Below are positions 43,255-53,058 of a DNA stretch of 64,000 nucleotides, in pieces; positions within the stretch are counted from its first letter, which is position 1, and the number at the start of each line of letters is the position of its first letter. Source of the stretch: Betaproteobacteria bacterium (GTDB lineage: Bacteria; Pseudomonadota; Gammaproteobacteria; Burkholderiales; Burkholderiaceae_D). The stretch covers positions 62,001 to 126,000 of the forward strand of contig JANYFL010000065.1 of the NCBI GenBank assembly GCA_025362735.1, written 5' to 3'. The notes under the pieces are model-generated. The model was not told where the DNA came from, searched no databases, and saw only the letters and a list, made by a program, of their open reading frames with translations. A program made the position numbers and the translations under genes.

Positions 43255-43761
43255 CTACCCAACTCTTTCCACAACAAGCCCTGCCACCGTTTTTTGAATG
43301 CCGTCTTCAGTAAAACGGAAATCGGCATCGTTTTCAGTCACCAGAATTGCCGTTGGATTAAAGTCCAGGCAACTCGCGGCGATGAACGCGTCTGGCAATT
43401 TGAGTTTTCCACCATCGGGGCCAGCCGGAACATTGCCGGGGATGGCCGCACGACGAAGGACATCTGCTCTGAGACTGGCAGCAAGGTCGGCTAACTCTTT
43501 TGAAATTTCAATAATGATCAGTTGCGGGTTCTCGAACTCAGAGACGAATGCTGCTTCTGCTGCAGCCCGTTCCGTTGGATCAAGTAAGCGGCGAGCTGCA
43601 ACAAAACATTCAGCCACGCAAACACGGCTGGTCGCACGTGCGGCACCGGGATACTTCAATAACAAAGCATCCAAGTCGGCTTGTACTTTTAAGCGCCTGC
43701 TTTGTTCCCCTAAAACTAAATGACTCCATACATTGGTATCGAGCAATAGCACATCACTCAT
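43255..43761 (-). CDS. PIN-domain nuclease (VapC-like)
   Basis: 168 aa. All PIN acidic positions are present: D8 in LLLDTNVWSHL, E51 in VCVAECFVAARR, D124 in KLPDAFIAAS and D145/D147 in TENDADF, so the protein should be active as a Mg2+-dependent RNase. No antitoxin gene precedes it. Instead its start overlaps the stop of the large restriction-methylase gene by 4 bp, in the same operon. It may be an effector of that system or a captured toxin. Confidence 0.82.
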   Translation of the reverse strand: MSDVLLLDTNVWSHLVLGEQSRRLKVQADLDALLLKYPGAARATSRVCVAECFVAARRLLDPTERAAAEAAFVSEFENPQLIIIEISKELADLAASLRADVLRRAAIPGNVPAGPDGGKLKLPDAFIAASCLDFNPTAILVTENDADFRFTEDGIQKTVAGLVVERVG

Positions 43762-46700
43762 TTGTTACTTCCGCCTGAAAGTAACTCGCGCTCACTCCAG
43801 CGGGTTCGTTCTGTGCGCAAAAACTCGCTCAGTTCATTTGAATTTGGTGCTTTGATCGCGGCGCCAGATTCGTGAGTCAAACGTGCCCAGTCTGCGGATT
43901 GTTCCTGCAGGTCTCGACCGGTTGAAATGGCCTCGACCAATACGTCAATCTGACTCATCACATCGGCGAGTTCACGGCGAATACTGCTGCGTAAACGTCC
44001 CAAGGCGCGTGGAGCCAACTCCAAGTCTTGCTGACTACCCAGAATGTTTTGCACGGTTTGAGCGGCGCTTTGGCCTAAAGCAACTAGCCGCCGGTGCGAG
44101 GGGCGATTGGGTGAAAAGTCAGGCCAAGAGATATCTAATATTTTTTTCGAGACATGGCGAGGCCCAAATAGGCCTCTTGCTGGGAATTCTTTGATTCCTA
44201 CATTTGCATACTGGCTGTTAAGAAAAGCTTCGACATAGCGGGCCTCAACTTCTGTTCGAGTGAAGCAAACATACATGGTGTAGTCCACCATAAATCGTGG
44301 CGAAAAAGAAGTTACATCTAACACACACGCTGATGCATCACTAGCTGACGCTGTATACATTACTGCCCATTTGGCATCGACCGGTTGGCCGGTCAACTTG
44401 CCTTGCCAATCCAACCAGTCCGTCATGCTTGACTTCTGCTTCTTAGCACTGTCACTACGCCGCTCATCCCAAAGCCGCTCGCATTGCCCAAACCAGCGGG
44501 CAGCTTCCAGATCACCCCGTGCCGTCAGATCGGCTGCATCCAGCAAACGCCAATGCAACTTACCGGGGAAGGGCTTGCCTCCAGTATTGACCTCATCCTC
44601 TTTCACCAGTGGCAAGGCTACCAGCGGTGGATTGACCAGGGCAAAGGGCAGCACGTTGCGCGCTAAGGCGGTGCGAAACAGGTACTTGCCTTGTATTGAG
44701 CCGCTGAGGGAAATGCCGTCCCAGGGTTTCTTGGCCCCTTCTAAAGCCAAAGGGTGAGTACGGAAGTTCACCACACGATCAGCCAAGTCCGTCATGCCAT
44801 CAAGTGATACCCCTTGGGGTTGCACAAAATAAAAAGCACGCGGCACGATAGTGGCACCTTGCCTGAAGCGCGGCGCATAGGCATTACCACCGCTCGCACC
44901 TTGCAGGCGTGTTTCAACCAGCGCCGAACGCTTCTTCTTGCTCTGCCCGTTCCCCAGCTCCTGAAAATACCAGCGCGTGTTGTCTTCTTTAATGTAAGCC
45001 TGTGCTTCGCTCCAGTGCATGTGAGGTCTGGGCAGTTTGCCATGCAGCACGCGTCCGACCAGGCCGTTGCGCGGTAGAGCGCGTTGACGCTGGCTGTCTA
45101 TACCTTCGGCATGTGAGGCCGTTGCCATCAGCACGCAGGCTGGTACGTTAAACAAGGGTGAAACGCCCTTGAGGTCCCAAACCTCAGTGAGTTTGAAACC
45201 GCGTGCTTCGCCATTGCGAGCGTTTTGATGCTGGTCTGCACTTAAAAATGATCTAGGCAACACAAAAGCAAGCTGTGCACCATCGGAGGCAAGGTACTTG
45301 CCACAGTGCGATAAAAAAACAGCAGCCAAATCAATGTGCGGATTGTTGGCTTTGGAGCTGGGCATCAGGCCGTAATACTTTGCCAGCGCTCGCACGTCGG
45401 TTTGGTAGTCGCCGCTGGTGATGTCAGCGTAAGTGAGCCATGGTGGGTTGGCAACCACGACATCAAACATCCGATGCATGAAGACGGGTTGATATAGATT
45501 TTGCAGCACGAACCGCCAGATGCTGTCGCGATTGTTGAGCTTAGCCTCTCGCATTGCCTGGTAGATTGCATAAAGCTCGCTCACATTCTGGACCGCCAGG
45601 CTAACGTCAGGCACACGATTGCGCAGTGCTTTCTCAAAGATTGCAGGGCTCTGCTCAACCTTGATCTGATCGTCAATAAAATGTTGCGCCAAATCAATGG
45701 CCTTGGCAAAGCTGTCTGGTTGTCCAATAAACGGCCCCATATCGAGGCCCAGGCGCTTATCGTCAACACGTACAGAAAAATGATGACCAGAAGAAAAGAG
45801 TGTCTTTTTAGCTTCGTCGGAAGAGAGAAACAGCGTATTGGCTAAGTAAACATTCAGCACGACTGGTGCACGGGCTCTGGCAACTTCCTCACCCAAGGCC
45901 AGCAACATGGTGGTCTTGGCAATTTGTACTGACAAAGGATGAACATCCACGCCTTTAATTTGATTGGCAATTTGTTGTGGGGGCATGTCGGGCCACTCCC
46001 GACGGTAGCGCGCGACTAAGGCGCGTAAAAAAGAGCCAGAACCACAGGCCGGGTCAAGCGCAAAAAACCCACGCTCAAGGTGCAAGTCGTCTACAACCCG
46101 TTCACACAGCCAATCAGGGGTGTAGTACTCGCCCAGGGCATGGCGAGTATCAATATCTATTAGCTCTTGGTAGACCCCTTTCAAGATGTCTTCTTCAACA
46201 TCGGTAAAATCGTACTCCGAGATCTGGTTATACAGTTCTCGCAGGGTAGGAGCCAGTTGTTGGAAAAACTCTGGTGTGCTTACCCAATAAAAAAAATCAC
46301 CTTCAACAAAATTTTCGACATTCAGTGCGGTAAACGCTTCCCCTGACAAGATGTGCCTTAGTACATCATCGCTTGGGTATGCGGCGGGTTTGAGAACTGC
46401 ATAAGCCAGCAACTTAGCAAACACGCTCAAGTAGGTATGAACGAGGTAAACCGAATTACCCAAGTCAAATTTTCCATAGGCCAATTGCAAAAAACGCTGC
46501 CACTGCTCGAATGCAACATGTACTGCTGATGATGGATTTTGAACAGGCATGACGCGCTGCATTGCTTGCACCGCGTTGATAAAGATGCGTGAGGTATCTC
46601 CAAAGTCGAGCTGTATGGCATCAAGAGTTGCGCGCTGCTTGGTAGTGCGGAAAAGGATTCGGTCAAGGAAAAAGAAAAATTTGTCCTCGTTATCTTTTTT

Positions 46701-47162
46701 GACCTCGAAATCTTCTACTTTTCGTAGCGCGGAGCGATTGGGTGTCTCTTGTCCAAGCAGCACTTCTAGATTAGGCGCATACGTTCGCCAGACACGGCCA
46801 TCTGTTGCGATCAATATGTAGTCGTATCGGTCTCCACTATGCCACCGACCGGCAAGGTACTCGGCTAATTGATCTTCGGCATGCCTACCTGTTTTGGCTA
46901 AATCTTTTTCCCATTCAATAATGACGTTGCTATAGGCAATGTCTGCATACCCTGTCTTTGGAACACCTGGACGAGGTATGTTAAAAATAGTTTTCTCGCC
47001 CCCTTGCGCCAATTCATTGACGACGTCTTTCGCGGCCTGACTATCTTGAAAGAGTCGGGTGAGGAGGTTCTGAAAACGCAGCTTTTTCGCCTCTTCGCTA
47101 TTGGCGAGGCGCAAACCACTTAGATAGTCTGAAACTTCTTCTTGAACTTTGTGTACTGCCAT
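43758..47162 (-). CDS. Eco57I/type IIG-like restriction enzyme with N6-adenine methylase
   Basis: 1134 aa. The N-terminal part has a nuclease-like stretch, GYADIAYSNVIIEWEKDLAK (about 70-90), resembling but not exactly matching the PD-(D/E)xK signature. The methylase core has motif I LDPACGSGSFLRALVARY (about 370) and motif IV VVANPPWLTY (about 571), split by a helical insert, with YYTPDWLCERVV just before motif I. The C-terminal half should hold a target-recognition domain. A single polypeptide with nuclease and methylase fits type IIG. No separate S or R gene is present; a PIN gene follows with a 4-bp overlap. Confidence 0.85.
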   Translation of the reverse strand: MAVHKVQEEVSDYLSGLRLANSEEAKKLRFQNLLTRLFQDSQAAKDVVNELAQGGEKTIFNIPRPGVPKTGYADIAYSNVIIEWEKDLAKTGRHAEDQLAEYLAGRWHSGDRYDYILIATDGRVWRTYAPNLEVLLGQETPNRSALRKVEDFEVKKDNEDKFFFFLDRILFRTTKQRATLDAIQLDFGDTSRIFINAVQAMQRVMPVQNPSSAVHVAFEQWQRFLQLAYGKFDLGNSVYLVHTYLSVFAKLLAYAVLKPAAYPSDDVLRHILSGEAFTALNVENFVEGDFFYWVSTPEFFQQLAPTLRELYNQISEYDFTDVEEDILKGVYQELIDIDTRHALGEYYTPDWLCERVVDDLHLERGFFALDPACGSGSFLRALVARYRREWPDMPPQQIANQIKGVDVHPLSVQIAKTTMLLALGEEVARARAPVVLNVYLANTLFLSSDEAKKTLFSSGHHFSVRVDDKRLGLDMGPFIGQPDSFAKAIDLAQHFIDDQIKVEQSPAIFEKALRNRVPDVSLAVQNVSELYAIYQAMREAKLNNRDSIWRFVLQNLYQPVFMHRMFDVVVANPPWLTYADITSGDYQTDVRALAKYYGLMPSSKANNPHIDLAAVFLSHCGKYLASDGAQLAFVLPRSFLSADQHQNARNGEARGFKLTEVWDLKGVSPLFNVPACVLMATASHAEGIDSQRQRALPRNGLVGRVLHGKLPRPHMHWSEAQAYIKEDNTRWYFQELGNGQSKKKRSALVETRLQGASGGNAYAPRFRQGATIVPRAFYFVQPQGVSLDGMTDLADRVVNFRTHPLALEGAKKPWDGISLSGSIQGKYLFRTALARNVLPFALVNPPLVALPLVKEDEVNTGGKPFPGKLHWRLLDAADLTARGDLEAARWFGQCERLWDERRSDSAKKQKSSMTDWLDWQGKLTGQPVDAKWAVMYTASASDASACVLDVTSFSPRFMVDYTMYVCFTRTEVEARYVEAFLNSQYANVGIKEFPARGLFGPRHVSKKILDISWPDFSPNRPSHRRLVALGQSAAQTVQNILGSQQDLELAPRALGRLRSSIRRELADVMSQIDVLVEAISTGRDLQEQSADWARLTHESGAAIKAPNSNELSEFLRTERTRWSERELLSGGSNK

Positions 47163-47329: not shown

Positions 47330-47611
47330 ATGCAGGCAACAACTACACTGAAACTTTCCGGCGAACTGAAAGAACGCGTTACCTTGGCTGCAAGTGCTTC
47401 CGGCAAAACTGCGCATGCCTGGATGGTCGAGGCGATTGAAGCGCAAACGGCGTTGGCGGAGCGTCGCAAGGCATTTGTTGCCTCGGCATTGAAGGCCGAG
47501 CAGGAAGTAGCTCAGTATGGGCTGGTTTACGACGCTGATGAGGTGTTCAGTTATATCAAGGCCAAGATGGATGGTCAGACGGCGAGGCGCCCGAAGGCAC
47601 GCAAGCTTTAG
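47330..47611 (+). CDS. Ribbon-helix-helix antitoxin (ParD/CopG-like)
   Basis: 93 aa. The N-terminus TTLKLSGELKERVTLAASAS fits an RHH beta-strand and helix, followed by GKTAHAWMVEAIEAQTALAE. The C-terminal helix and basic tail (QTARRPKARKL) would bind the toxin. The ParE-like gene starts 20 bp later on the same strand. It is divergent from the restriction enzyme operon. Confidence 0.83.
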   Translation: MQATTTLKLSGELKERVTLAASASGKTAHAWMVEAIEAQTALAERRKAFVASALKAEQEVAQYGLVYDADEVFSYIKAKMDGQTARRPKARKL

Positions 47612-47631: not shown

Positions 47632-47928
47632 ATGACAAGACTTCTGCTCGCACCAAGAGCGCTTGAGGATATTGAGAGATTGACCGAATTTCTGCAAAAT
47701 TGCGGCGATCCGGGTGCAGTTGAAATTGCCGCAATTCTGATGGATGGGTTGAGCTTGCTAAAGCAGCATCCCATGATTGGCCGACAGGCTGAAGATGGTT
47801 TACGGGAACTGGTTATTTCGCGTGGACGTAGTGGTTATGTCGCCTTGTATCGTTACGATGTCATTTCAGATACAGCGCTTATCTTGGCAGTCAAACATCA
47901 ACGAGAAGGCGGTTACGAGCAAGTCTGA
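47632..47928 (+). CDS. RelE/ParE-family toxin
   Basis: 98 aa. ParE/RelE fold: ALEDIERLTEFLQNCGDPGA, LLKQHPMIGRQAEDGLREL, GYVALYRYDVISDTALILAV and KHQREGGYEQV. ParE toxins poison gyrase and RelE ones cut mRNA; the sequence fits either. It pairs with the RHH antitoxin just upstream, as usual for parDE. Confidence 0.85.
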   Translation: MTRLLLAPRALEDIERLTEFLQNCGDPGAVEIAAILMDGLSLLKQHPMIGRQAEDGLRELVISRGRSGYVALYRYDVISDTALILAVKHQREGGYEQV

Positions 47929-49170: not shown

Positions 49171-49174
49171 CGCT

Positions 49175-49267
49175 TGTCATCCTGAGCGCAGCGAAGGATC
49201 TCAGGTTTTGCAATAGCCACCGGTAGCGCATGACCAACTGAGATTCTTCGAGTGCGCTCAGAATGAC
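49175..49267. repeat. Dispersed repeat, family C copy 1 (TGTCATCCTGAGCGCAGCGA type)
   Basis: Begins TGTCATCCTGAGCGCAGCGA and ends GCTCAGAATGACA in inverted orientation, with GGATCTCAG and GAGATTCTTCG inside. It fills the whole space between the convergent cfa and doxX stops. The second copy is at 51487-51594. Elements of this kind are common in unrelated bacterial genomes. Confidence 0.8.
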
Positions 49268-49268
49268 A

Positions 49269-49745
49269 TCAGATTTGAGGCCGCGCAGGAGCGAGTCCCA
49301 GCCGCTTCAAAATAAAGTGATCGACTGAAATTTTTCCGGGTCCGAACACGACCAGTAAGGCAATCAGGCTGCCCCAGAAGAAGTGTGACTGGATCGCGGC
49401 TGGGCACTCGAACTCGAAGAGTTGCGGATAAGAAAGTACAGCCATCAGGTTCACGACAAACAGACCTGCAGCCCCGAAGCGGCCAGCCAATCCCAACACC
49501 AGCAAGATCGGGAAAAACAATTCACCTCCTGCACCCATGACTGCAGCGACGGCAGGTGGCAAGACCGGGACTTTGTATTCATCGGTAAACAAGGCAAGTG
49601 TATTGCTCCAGTCTTGAATCTTGGTCAGGCCGGATTTGAAAAAGACATCTGCCAGATAAAGCCGCATGGCCAGTAAGGCGAGTGATTGCAGCCAGTTGAC
49701 CCAGCTCGTCACGATCATGCTTTTTTGTATGAAGTTTTTGAACAT
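49269..49745 (-). CDS. DoxX-family membrane protein of the bufferin cluster
   Basis: 158 aa, four hydrophobic helices. It shows LLAMRLYLADVFFKSGLTKI with the following KIQDWSNTLALF, and PVLPPAVAAVMGAGGELFFP typical of DoxX. It would sit in the inner membrane. In bufferin-type clusters a DoxX protein usually follows DUF2063, as it does here 76 bp downstream. Its role in export, folding or redox of the peptide is not established. Confidence 0.83.
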   Translation of the reverse strand: MFKNFIQKSMIVTSWVNWLQSLALLAMRLYLADVFFKSGLTKIQDWSNTLALFTDEYKVPVLPPAVAAVMGAGGELFFPILLVLGLAGRFGAAGLFVVNLMAVLSYPQLFEFECPAAIQSHFFWGSLIALLVVFGPGKISVDHFILKRLGLAPARPQI

Positions 49746-49821
49746 GAAGTTCTCCCTGAATTTAGATACCGGACTAGTCGTTTGAGTACGGCGATTCTTA
49801 CACGGAATTTTTTACAAGAAG

Positions 49822-50592
49822 TCAGACACGGCAATCGCAAATCCAGCCGGATTGAATCCAATGGGCGAGCGCCGACTGAATGTCGAACTTATTGTCTATG
49901 GCATAAGCCGCTTCCAGCGCGTTGAAGAGCGTTTCACCGGACAAGAGTGAATCGAGTGCTGCGGCGTTACCCTGATCAAGCTGTTCGACGTGAACCTGCA
50001 TGCCCTCGCGAATGACCCAGGCGGCTTCTGGGATATCCCATTCGACCTGGAATGAACCTGCGTAATCTTTCTGATGAATCGACCAGATCTGTACGATGGG
50101 ATAAGTCGATTTGATCAGAGTCGTTCCTGGCGCAAAATCAAAGCGCACCTGGTCTTGCTGCGTATCAGGAATTTGTAGAAGTCGAGATGGATCGAAGGGC
50201 TTTGGATCGGCAAGACTTGCGGCACAAAAGACCGCCCATTCCAGCCGCGCCAGATCGGGCAGGTAGGGATATTCACGGGTGTGGGGAAACTCGGCCACGA
50301 ACTCAGAAAAGCTCGCTCCGAACTCGTGCAAATTGCCACTGGTCGAAGGCGTTTGTTGCCAGTAGGCCCGTGCAAGTCCGTCAAAAAATTCTTCGCCCAA
50401 CACTTGCTGGATAACGGGATAAGTGATTGCCAGTGTTTTGGTGATTGAGGTCACGACATTGCCGCGATAAATGGCGAGTCGTCGTTGTACGACAGCATCA
50501 TCAGCTGTGAAATGTGCAGCGACTTGCAATGTTTTGACTGGGTCGCGTATCGCTTGTACGAACTGGTTTTGAAGCGTGTGGAGTTCAGGCAT
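49822..50592 (-). CDS. bufC: DUF2063 (BufC/HvfC-type) putative partner of DUF692 enzyme
   Basis: 256 aa from the ATG at 50592; longer frames run into the DUF692 gene. The DUF2063 N-terminal domain is plain: LQNQFVQAIRDP, RLAIYRGNVVTSITKTLAIT, YPVIQQVLGEEFFDGLARAY. In related systems it binds the precursor peptide and delivers it to the DUF692 enzyme. Its start overlaps the DUF692 stop by 8 bp, so the two are coupled. Function is inferred from family members. Confidence 0.85.
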   Translation of the reverse strand: MPELHTLQNQFVQAIRDPVKTLQVAAHFTADDAVVQRRLAIYRGNVVTSITKTLAITYPVIQQVLGEEFFDGLARAYWQQTPSTSGNLHEFGASFSEFVAEFPHTREYPYLPDLARLEWAVFCAASLADPKPFDPSRLLQIPDTQQDQVRFDFAPGTTLIKSTYPIVQIWSIHQKDYAGSFQVEWDIPEAAWVIREGMQVHVEQLDQGNAAALDSLLSGETLFNALEAAYAIDNKFDIQSALAHWIQSGWICDCRV

Positions 50593-51451
50593 CGACTGCC
50601 TCACTGCGAAAATCGTTGAGGTGCGAGCGTGCGATCTGTGCTTCGTCCAGCAGGACTGCGAGGTCGGGAACATCTGTGTCCCACTCGATCAATGTTGGCT
50701 TGGGGCCGATGGTGGCGAGCGTGTGACGATAGAGTTCCCACACAGCCAGGATGACACGTGAACCGTGGTCGTCGATCAGGCATTCATCCGTATTCAGGTG
50801 TCCTGCCAAATGAATTTCACCGACCGCGTCGGCCGGTAATTCATCGATCAATGGCAAAGGATCGAAGCCGAAGTTGACGGCGTTGACATACAGATTATTG
50901 ACATCAAACAGAATGCCGCATCCAGTTCGACGAGACAGTTCGGCCATAAAAGCAGTTTCACTCATGGTGCTGCTGCGATAGGCAAGATAAGCCGAAATGT
51001 TCTCGACCAGAATCGGACGTTTGAGGGTGTCCTGTACGCGTTCCACCCGTGCGCTGATCAAGTCCAGCGCTTCTTCGCTATACGGGATGGGCAACAGATC
51101 ATTGAGATGCTGGCCGTTGATGCTGCCCCAGCAAAGGTGTTCTGATACCAAAGTGGGTTCGACGAATTCAACCAGACGTTTGAGTTTGTTCAAATGCCTT
51201 TGCGCCGCTTCGTCCTGATTGGCATCAGCAGAACCGAGTGACAGTCCAACGCCATGCAGGCTGATGGGATATTGTTCGCGCGCTTGTTGCAATATGCGCA
51301 GAGCTGCACCGCCATCGGCAAAAAAATTCTCGCTATGGACTTCCAGAAAAGCGGGAGCGTCATCAGCTCCTGCATCACGCTCATTAAGCAGCGTGCGGTA
51401 ATGCGGTTGACGCAGGCCGATGCCGACAGCGTTGCCGGACAGGGTCTTCAT
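50585..51451 (-). CDS. bufB: DUF692 multinuclear iron enzyme (BufB/HvfB/MbnB-type)
   Basis: 288 aa, a length normal for the family. A TIM-barrel enzyme with a two- or three-iron site that modifies Cys or other residues in precursor peptides (as MbnB does in methanobactin). Ligand motifs are visible in order: EVHSENFF, ISLHGVGLSLG, VSEHLCW, ILVENIS, GILFDVNNLYVNAVN, EIHLAGH and DHGSRV. It is coupled to bufC and follows the DUF2282 gene by 179 bp, which hold a dispersed repeat. Confidence 0.87.
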   Translation of the reverse strand: MKTLSGNAVGIGLRQPHYRTLLNERDAGADDAPAFLEVHSENFFADGGAALRILQQAREQYPISLHGVGLSLGSADANQDEAAQRHLNKLKRLVEFVEPTLVSEHLCWGSINGQHLNDLLPIPYSEEALDLISARVERVQDTLKRPILVENISAYLAYRSSTMSETAFMAELSRRTGCGILFDVNNLYVNAVNFGFDPLPLIDELPADAVGEIHLAGHLNTDECLIDDHGSRVILAVWELYRHTLATIGPKPTLIEWDTDVPDLAVLLDEAQIARSHLNDFRSEAVDA

Positions 51452-51486
51452 GGATGCGTAAATACGGAAGCGATGTACAGTTTGAT

Positions 51487-51594
51487 TGTCATTCTGAACG
51501 CAGTGAAGAATCTCAAGTGTTTCAGCGAGTACCGGCTGGAAAGGTCTGATGGTAATTGGTCTACCTGAGATTCTTCGCGTTGCTCAGAATGACA
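51487..51594. repeat. Dispersed repeat, family C copy 2, inside the bufferin operon
   Basis: Begins TGTCATTCTGAACGCAGTGA and ends GCTCAGAATGACA; matches the copy at 49175-49267. It lies between the precursor gene and bufB, on the transcribed path. The ends pair, so the RNA would form a long hairpin that could lower expression of the enzymes relative to the precursor. Confidence 0.75.
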
Positions 51595-51630
51595 AAGATT
51601 CGCGGTGCTCTGACCAGAGCTACAGCTTGC

Positions 51631-51909
51631 TCAGCCTTTTTTCATGGGCTCAGCAGTCAGCTTGCCACCCATTTTTTCGCAGGTTCCCTTGGCGACGTAC
51701 TTCCAGTCACCGGGAGCGTTATCAACTTTTGCGGCACCAGCGCAGGCATGGGTACCGGTGGCGCTGGCGCAGTCATTGGCACCGGCCTTGGCGACGCCGA
51801 AACATTTGTCTTTGGTCGCATCGGGTGCAACCGGCGCGGCATGTGCAGAAACTGCGGCAAAGGCGATGGCGGAAGCGAGTGCGGAACGAATGATGGTTTG
51901 CTTGTTCAT
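51631..51909 (-). CDS. bufA1: DUF2282 bufferin-type precursor peptide with signal sequence
   Basis: 92 aa. Signal peptide about 1-24 ([15 protein letters not shown]), then a core of 68 residues with four Cys at 36, 47, 56 and 77, in [19 protein letters not shown] and KGTCEKMGG. That spacing and the [17 protein letters not shown] ending are the DUF2282 pattern of bufferin precursors, where Cys are modified by the DUF692 enzyme and the product binds copper in the periplasm. AGGAGA is a strong ribosome binding site, at 51916-51921. The peptide is the first gene of the cluster. Copper binding is family knowledge, not shown here. Confidence 0.88.
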
Positions 51910-51976
51910 GTCAAATCTCCTGATCTAAAGGTGGTTGGTGGCTAAGTTACGAGTTACGGGAATACTTCCCAAGCGT

Positions 51977-52089
51977 CTGTCGCGGCTTGTGGAGCTTCCT
52001 TACAGAATTTTGCGCGTTTATTTTGACGAGGTCATGAAAAGTTTGAATTTTTAAGCAGGACTGTCGGAAATTCCAGAAACCTTACAGAA
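51977..52089 (-). promoter_or_regulatory. Two direct copies of TTCTGTAAGG upstream of bufA1 (candidate ECF promoter)
   Basis: On the minus strand TTCTGTAAGG occurs at 52089-52080 and at 52007-51998. Each is followed by CGACAG (52066-52061 and 51982-51977) after 13 and 15 bases. The nearer copy lies about 68 bases before the bufA1 start. The layout resembles a promoter for an ECF-type sigma factor; different spacing of the two copies suggests that only one is used. No anti-sigma or ECF gene is in the window. Confidence 0.35.
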
Positions 52090-52963: not shown

Positions 52964-53058
52964 CTCCCTCCCCTTCAAGGGGAGGGTTGGGGTGGGGATG
53001 GGTCATCTCTGACCATTGAACCCATCCCCCACCTAAACTCCCCCTTGAAGGGGGAGGA
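52964..53058. repeat. Dispersed palindromic repeat, family A copy 3
   Basis: Outer arms CTCCCTCCCCTTCAAGGGGA and CTCCCCCTTGAAGGGGGAGG, with inner pair GGGGATGGGTCA / TGAACCCATCCCC. It fills the space between uppP and recQ. The purine-rich end (GGGGAGGAAC, 53051-53060) lies 23 bases before the recQ GTG. Confidence 0.78.

Follow-up and report, generated by a model that had tools for sequence, protein, structure and literature searches.

The bufferin gene cluster at positions 49,269 to 52,089 of a 64,000-nucleotide stretch of DNA from a Betaproteobacteria bacterium (order Burkholderiales, family Burkholderiaceae_D; GenBank assembly GCA_025362735.1, contig JANYFL010000065.1, positions 62,001 to 126,000; the whole stretch is hereafter the window) is quite likely a Buf1 operon run by an extracytoplasmic function (ECF) stress sigma factor, L209, which would co-control msrP; a palindromic insert interrupts the operon and a feedback promoter would lie inside the sigma gene. 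This last element concerns many bacteria of the order: with moderate confidence, a promoter read by the ECF sigma factor that is predicted to drive bufferin and methionine-repair genes is embedded there in the sigma gene itself, within the codons of region 4, the region that reads the -35 element, so that active sigma would boost its anti-sigma factor but not itself. Gene content, protein families, conservation, promoter-like sites and codon constraint were computed here, whereas the identity of the sigma factor that reads the sites, the effect of the insert and the feedback are inferred.

51979–52004, minus strand: predicted ECF promoter of bufA, TGTAAG-N16-CGAC, starting 95 nt and ending 69 nt before the ATG
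51631–51909, minus strand: bufA, Buf1/DUF2282 bufferin precursor, 92 aa, with Cys36, Cys47, Cys56 and Cys77; PF10048, 82.3 bits (cut-off 22.4)
50585–51451, minus strand: bufB, bufferin maturase of the multinuclear non-heme iron-dependent oxidase (MNIO) family, 288 aa; PF05114 (MbnB_TglH_ChrH), 334.6 bits (cut-off 25)
49822–50592, minus strand: bufC, DUF2063-type MNIO partner, 256 aa; PF09836, 85.2 bits (cut-off 27.2)
49777–49802, minus strand: another predicted ECF promoter, likewise TGTAAG-N16-CGAC, which ends 31 nt upstream of the doxX start codon (ATG)
49269–49745, minus strand: doxX, DoxX-family membrane protein, 158 aa; PF07681, 61 bits (cut-off 23.6)

The four genes are transcribed on the minus strand in the order bufA, bufB, bufC, doxX, all four frames are open and, with the bufC start taken at 50592, bufC and bufB overlap by 8 bp. 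This overlap had been read correctly in a first-pass annotation made from the letters alone, which had proposed a complete DUF2282/DUF692/DUF2063/DoxX cluster of the bufferin class of ribosomally synthesised and post-translationally modified peptides and had suggested a hidden Markov model (HMM) search for the first three domains; in that search all three were matched, and all four genes are present with Pfam scores above the cut-offs. The class assignment agrees with gene order, with the literature and with the NCBIfam model NF050167 (MNIO_BufB), whose cut-off of 310 bits BufB exceeds with 353.5, while BufC and DoxX bear a partial resemblance to HvfC (NF050145, 61.8 bits, below the cut-off of 142) and HvfX (NF050144, 57.7 bits, below the cut-off of 80), and BufA was matched by no NCBIfam model. 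A single DUF2282 gene and a single MNIO gene were found in the organism's own assembly (3.01 Mb, 71 contigs, 93.6% complete); this single-copy status, the two promoter-like sites and a dispersed element at 51486–51595 had escaped the first-pass annotation. Family models, gene order and literature give good support to the view that the locus is a complete but ordinary Buf1 cluster, of a published kind; on the same grounds, and by analogy with studied relatives, the product is well supported as a putative periplasmic copper-binding peptide with MNIO-modified cysteines.

Of 300 genomes sampled from the order, 96 contain DUF2282, as do 80 of 145 from the family, the own genome being counted in both. 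Sixty of the DUF2282 places at order level were taken with 5 kb on each side: bufA, bufB and bufC stand together in 57, a doxX-like gene is present in 43 and all four genes in 42. A second set, drawn from named genomes by a BufB alignment scan and comprising the best 80 of at least 584 confirmed places, some on contigs that end close by, has all four genes in 56 loci, all but doxX in 18, bufA and bufB only in 2 and no recognised bufA in 4. The two sets overlap (L069 and L157 share the same upstream sequence) and are pooled only where stated. Since the same genes recur together in relatives, a chance assembly of the cluster is excluded. As a separate observation, five loci (L041, L047, L048, L061 and L073) carry the bufB and bufC matches in one open frame, suggesting natural BufB-BufC fusions.

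The promoter-like sites were studied in 148 bufA upstream regions pooled from both locus sets (own region included; 146 distinct), among whose top enriched 7-mers GTGTAAG and TGTAAGG appear along with words that stem from the start codon and the ribosome site. The pattern TGTAA[GC]-N16/17-CG[AT]C occurs in 39 of these regions (38 of the 146 distinct), against a shuffle mean of 0.2 and a maximum of 1 in 50 rounds, and with a slightly different definition of the bufA region its spacing is N16 in 19 cases and N17 in 21, with 1–2 each at 10, 11, 13 and 14 and zero at the rest of the range from 10 to 21. Of 102 doxX upstream regions, 6 also contain the motif (shuffle mean 0.0); it is found upstream of none of 139 bufB and none of 137 bufC genes. 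Because exact matches in the own genome number 12 and do not exceed the 20 counted for a reversed control, the frequency of the motif is uninformative and only position speaks for the sites. Two of the 12 lie, correctly oriented, in the short gaps upstream of bufA (227 nt) and doxX (76 nt), another ends 27 nt upstream of msrP (L195, 1554–2519; MsrP model, 491 bits, cut-off 207) and another is inside the sigma gene discussed below. The bufA and doxX sites agree with the Neisseria sigmaE consensus as reported, GTMAGBWTT, 12–13 nt, CGTCTAAH, where N16 equals a spacer of 12 on the published count, and the reported targets of that sigma factor are a DoxX-containing operon and msrA/B (PMC2893595, PMC3240639). 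No paper joining TGTAAG with DoxX and a sigma factor was found in the literature, which is no proof of novelty.

Seven proteins of the own genome exceed the Sigma70_r4_2 cut-off, and behind one of them lies the gene of a 61-residue zinc anti-sigma factor (NF052368 antisigmaE, 62 bits, cut-off 50; zf-HC2; Hx3Cx2C seen, P0006):

1102–1704 of locus L209 (C45), no strand given: the sigma gene, also called L209 here; TIGR02943, 254 bits (cut-off 162.2)

When all seven sigma proteins were used as queries against the open reading frames (ORFs) of 140 buf loci, 24 ORFs, each in a different locus, matched L209 best, with 34–59% identity and 107–235 bits. L209-like sigma genes (E at most 1e-25) occur in 129 of the 300 order genomes and are distributed unevenly, in 67 of the 96 with DUF2282 versus 62 of the 204 without it (p 2e-10). 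Among the order genomes whose bufA locus was examined, the bufA motif is only loosely associated with the sigma gene, being present in 18 of 38 with that gene versus 3 of 20 without (p 0.02). L209 is the likely reader of the bufA and doxX sites.

The site inside L209 is one of the 12 genomic matches; it ends 98 nt before the anti-sigma gene and spans the region 4 codons for C-K-E-L-G-I-S-T-S. Its recurrence was followed in 130 sigma genes (L216–L285, L306–L365), taken in score order as 30, then 40, then 60, the weakest listed places being left out: a sense site TGTAAG-N16-CGWC is present in 57 of them (39 among the first 70 genes and 18 among the 60 that came after), whereas 200 rounds of within-gene shuffling of synonymous codons yield 6.4 on average and 13 at most, an excess that suggests a feedback promoter in coding sequence. 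The spacing is N16 in all 57, and the control genes contain such sites in 2 of 139 (bufB) and 0 of 137 (bufC) cases. In the first 70 genes the two strongest third-base enrichments among 172 columns are the T of TGT (z 9.8) and the G that closes the NCG codon seven codons further along (z 9.4), and the G of the AAG adjoining TGT reaches z 5.8. At the in-gene position TGT encodes 57 of 69 cysteines, versus 52 of 216 other cysteines of the same genes; Cys-Lys pairs in the 130 genes are written TGT AAG 59 times and TGC AAG 4 times, though TGT is the less-used Cys codon, and TGC is found in 25 of 30 cases where the residue after Cys is not Lys, Gln or Asn. On these codon statistics, the constraint appears to be selection at the level of DNA, and a promoter for the anti-sigma gene is its simplest reading.

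In each of the 39 cases of the first set, the start of the site is 102–141 nt from the end of the sigma gene. All 70 sigma genes examined, with or without the in-gene site, have an anti-sigma-like ORF behind them (E up to 0.01); in 68 of them its first possible start falls between 52 nt upstream and 44 nt downstream of the sigma stop, and in the other two it is 114 and 132 nt downstream. On a protein tree built without the columns of the site, its presence requires at least 23 changes, so the site is not one inherited block. Two further features of these genes were observed. A TGT CAG variant of the site occurs, for example in L268, L271, L272, L279 and L280, TGT being used in 20 of 21 Cys-Gln pairs, and is perhaps a lineage-specific weaker promoter; and at sigma codon 73, a conserved Leu, the third base is C in 42 of 70 genes versus 13.2 expected, with milder effects at codons 67 and 75.

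Several results weigh against the control proposed here. The motif is missing from 109 of the 148 bufA upstream regions; genome-wide it is no commoner than its reversed control, six of its 12 sites lie within or across longer ORFs unrelated to the regulon and two precede no clear gene; 20 of the 38 genomes with the sigma gene have no bufA motif, and the 3 of 20 noted above have the motif in a genome without that gene. L209 itself is encoded elsewhere in the genome, no sigma gene being near the own buf cluster, and 18 ORFs near buf loci match other own sigma factors best, mostly at 25–32% identity and two at 44%. It could then be supposed that the cluster is under housekeeping or other metal regulation and that the TGTAAG-N16-CGAC sites before bufA and doxX are coincidental, a supposition to which the chance-level frequency of the motif, its absence from most relatives' bufA regions and the failure to find NrsF (PF06532), the Caulobacter anti-sigma factor, in the 93.6% complete own genome (the Caulobacter control being positive) lend some weight. 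It is nevertheless improbable, since two of only 12 genomic sites fall, in the correct orientation, in the short intergenic regions before bufA and doxX, and in relatives the same positions are enriched and those before bufB and bufC are empty.

The internal promoter of the sigma gene has its own difficulties, as the site is missing from 73 of the 130 genes, the anti-sigma ORF is there with or without it, and the third-base bias of codon 73 is almost equally strong (z 9.1) and has no explanation. The conserved TGT...CG bases might belong to another feature of DNA or RNA, such as translational coupling, a small RNA or mRNA structure, and the reliance of the promoter on codon statistics, together with the second synonymous constraint at codon 73, leaves this a doubtful but appreciable alternative. 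Against it, the constrained bases are those of a promoter found independently, with an invariant N16, and their distance from the end of the sigma gene lies within the interval given above in all 39 of the first set. A promoter directed at the anti-sigma gene is accordingly preferred.

The dispersed element mentioned above is present twice at the locus:

51486–51595, no strand: dispersed palindromic element, resembling repetitive extragenic palindromes (REP) and bacterial interspersed mosaic elements (BIME), 110 bp, between bufA and bufB
49174–49268, no strand: second, less complete copy, directly after doxX

The distance from the bufA stop to the start of the bufB HMM match is 203 nt here, versus a median of 77 in 57 relatives (it is longer, 309 nt, in L049). 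Arms of the palindrome number 50 in the own genome (up to 3 mismatches) versus 0 for a reversed control pattern, and the element is found in 2 of 145 family genomes, own included (up to 2 mismatches). Among 38 arms from 22 places of the own genome the inner base pair is C-G in 22, T-A in 15 and G-C in 1; this covariation suggests that every arm is maintained as a small hairpin, in which the element resembles REP elements. No paper containing two of five short motifs from the element was found that could give it a name. Its mobilisation by the sole Y1_Tnp gene of the genome (L112) was considered and is not supported, no arm being present in the surrounding 3.3 kb at up to 6 mismatches. An imperfect G/C-rich inverted repeat at 52965–53058, between uppP and recQ, is perhaps another dispersed element.

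The insert may raise the output of bufA over that of bufBC: with short flanks it folds as RNA at -44.7 kcal/mol versus a shuffle mean of -27.3 (z -4.8), and hairpins of this kind can alter mRNA decay. The chances are about even that it is instead neutral, without effect on expression, since a family scattered over the genome in 50 arms needs no function to be inserted here and subtracting its 110 nt brings the 203-nt gap near the median.

In an alignment of 21 BufB sequences, the others being 39–57% identical to the own protein, no variation is seen at H66, H105, E150, D183, N186, H214, D227, H229, E256 and D258, and hardly any at N185. H66, H105, E150, H214 and E256 would have roles at the iron site; the iron-site residues are present, and the first-pass annotation had noted all metal-ligand motifs in this DUF692 enzyme. 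Through an alignment to 3bww, N185, D227 and H229 would correspond to HvfB N175, D242 and H244, reported as required for activity (PMC13419390), and D258 to FonB D249, the proposed base (PMC12668002).

The chemistry of modification and the binding of copper are taken by analogy from published relatives (PMC12452194, PMC12668002), and a different outcome is conceivable, in which the modification made by the MNIO differs, or the role of the peptide is to bind some other metal or to deal with oxidants. The predicted co-regulation with msrP is in line with such an outcome, as are the responses of such operons to hypochlorite in relatives (PMC7907618) and the gold response of GIG operons (PMC5413113). 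Little credence is given to it here, because BufB passes the bufferin-maturase cut-off and the characterised members with such a partner are reported to install thiooxazoles and generally to bind copper (PMC12668002).

The precursor itself contains the four cysteines announced by the first-pass annotation, aligned with those of relatives, in a core of 68 residues if cleavage occurs after AHA24 (the signal peptide being judged by eye). The KCFG motif, in which Phe follows the first Cys and which had been put forward as a peculiarity where Tyr is common, is really present in BufA and is not distinctive: the residue after Cys1 in 66 BufA-like proteins of the 60 order loci is Y (37), F (16), A (7), W (3) or L (3), and in 77 BufA-like proteins of the named-genome set (best 80 of at least 584 places; 6 further sequences that did not fit the pattern were dropped) Y (46), F (22), G (5), A (2), S (1) or W (1). 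Phe is also found in both loci with the top-scoring BufB among these best 80 of at least 584, from Scleromatobacter humisilvae (L113) and a Rhodocyclales bacterium (L114). The variant is therefore ordinary, since F after Cys1 is common in both sets, and its status as a distinctive trait is ruled out; nor is the Phe expected beside a modified residue, because in Buf1 the central Cys are reported to be modified and a disulfide links the first and last Cys (PMC12452194). The residues near the Cys look fairly conserved in the present sets (alignment with 32 relatives), in contrast with the little conservation described for DUF2282 sequences in the available part of PMC12668002. The earlier remark that few members have been studied is fair for the chemistry, less so for the catalogue, in which members number thousands (PMC12452194). 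The predicted structure of BufA is weak (mean pLDDT 68.9), with no fold match at E up to 0.001, and no solved structure is related in sequence to BufA or BufC at E up to 1.

Taken together, the proposed course of events would be as follows. BufA would be made with a Sec signal peptide and presented by BufC to BufB, which, using its iron cluster and oxygen, would convert the two central Cys to 5-thiooxazoles; the modified peptide would then be exported, its outer Cys joined by a disulfide, and the mature peptide would bind surplus periplasmic copper. The genes would be turned on by L209, an ECF sigma factor of the Neisseria sigmaE/Haemophilus RpoE2 kind with a zinc anti-sigma factor encoded behind it, which would start one transcript at bufA, another at doxX and probably one at msrP, whose product would repair oxidised periplasmic methionines. 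The 110-bp palindromic insert may let bufA exceed bufBC, and through the internal promoter of its gene active sigma would yield more of its own inhibitor.

Elsewhere in the window, a ParE toxin gene (PF05016) stands behind a small gene without a Pfam match (47330–47611 and 47632–47928, plus strand), likely a type II toxin-antitoxin pair, and adjoins a gene with N6_Mtase and Eco57I domains (43758–47162, minus strand).

The cluster itself is one more bufferin producer, while its control region offers a lead to what switches on bufferin clusters in the order, namely a sigma factor of the kind that responds to oxidative damage in Haemophilus and has methionine sulfoxide reductase under its control in Neisseria. 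This would link copper-binding peptides to methionine repair; if true, the in-gene promoter would be a compact feedback device in which the same bases serve as protein code and promoter code.

Among known systems, the locus is like the Buf1 cluster of Caulobacter vibrioides in its DUF2282 precursor with four Cys, its MNIO, DUF2063 partner and DoxX and its ECF-type promoter; unlike in that organism, here no NrsF was found in the genome and no sigma gene near the cluster, the promoter is of the TGTAAG...CGAC kind rather than the reported GTAACC-N16-CGAA (PMC3511200), doxX has its own predicted promoter and a dispersed element separates bufA from bufB. The same four domains make up the GIG operons of Cupriavidus metallidurans and Legionella pneumophila, whose regulator is unsettled in the available part of the source (PMC5413113). 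The oxazolin/captophorin clusters (HvfABC, FonABC) share an MNIO with a DUF2063 partner, and thiooxazole and copper are known there; their precursors are reported to carry EGKCG repeats, whereas the core here is of the DUF2282 type. As to regulation, the pairs sigmaE-MseR of Neisseria and RpoE2-HrsE of Haemophilus are alike in joining an ECF sigma factor to a small anti-sigma factor, with a DoxX operon and methionine sulfoxide reductase as reported targets; the reported targets of Haemophilus RpoE2 include msrAB and an operon that contains COG3220, DUF2063 and DoxX genes (PMC7907618). Unlike in those regulons, the predicted target here is a DUF2282 bufferin and the predicted reductase is MsrP, and a promoter within the sigma gene, of which no mention was found for either pair in the available parts of the sources, is proposed for the present system.

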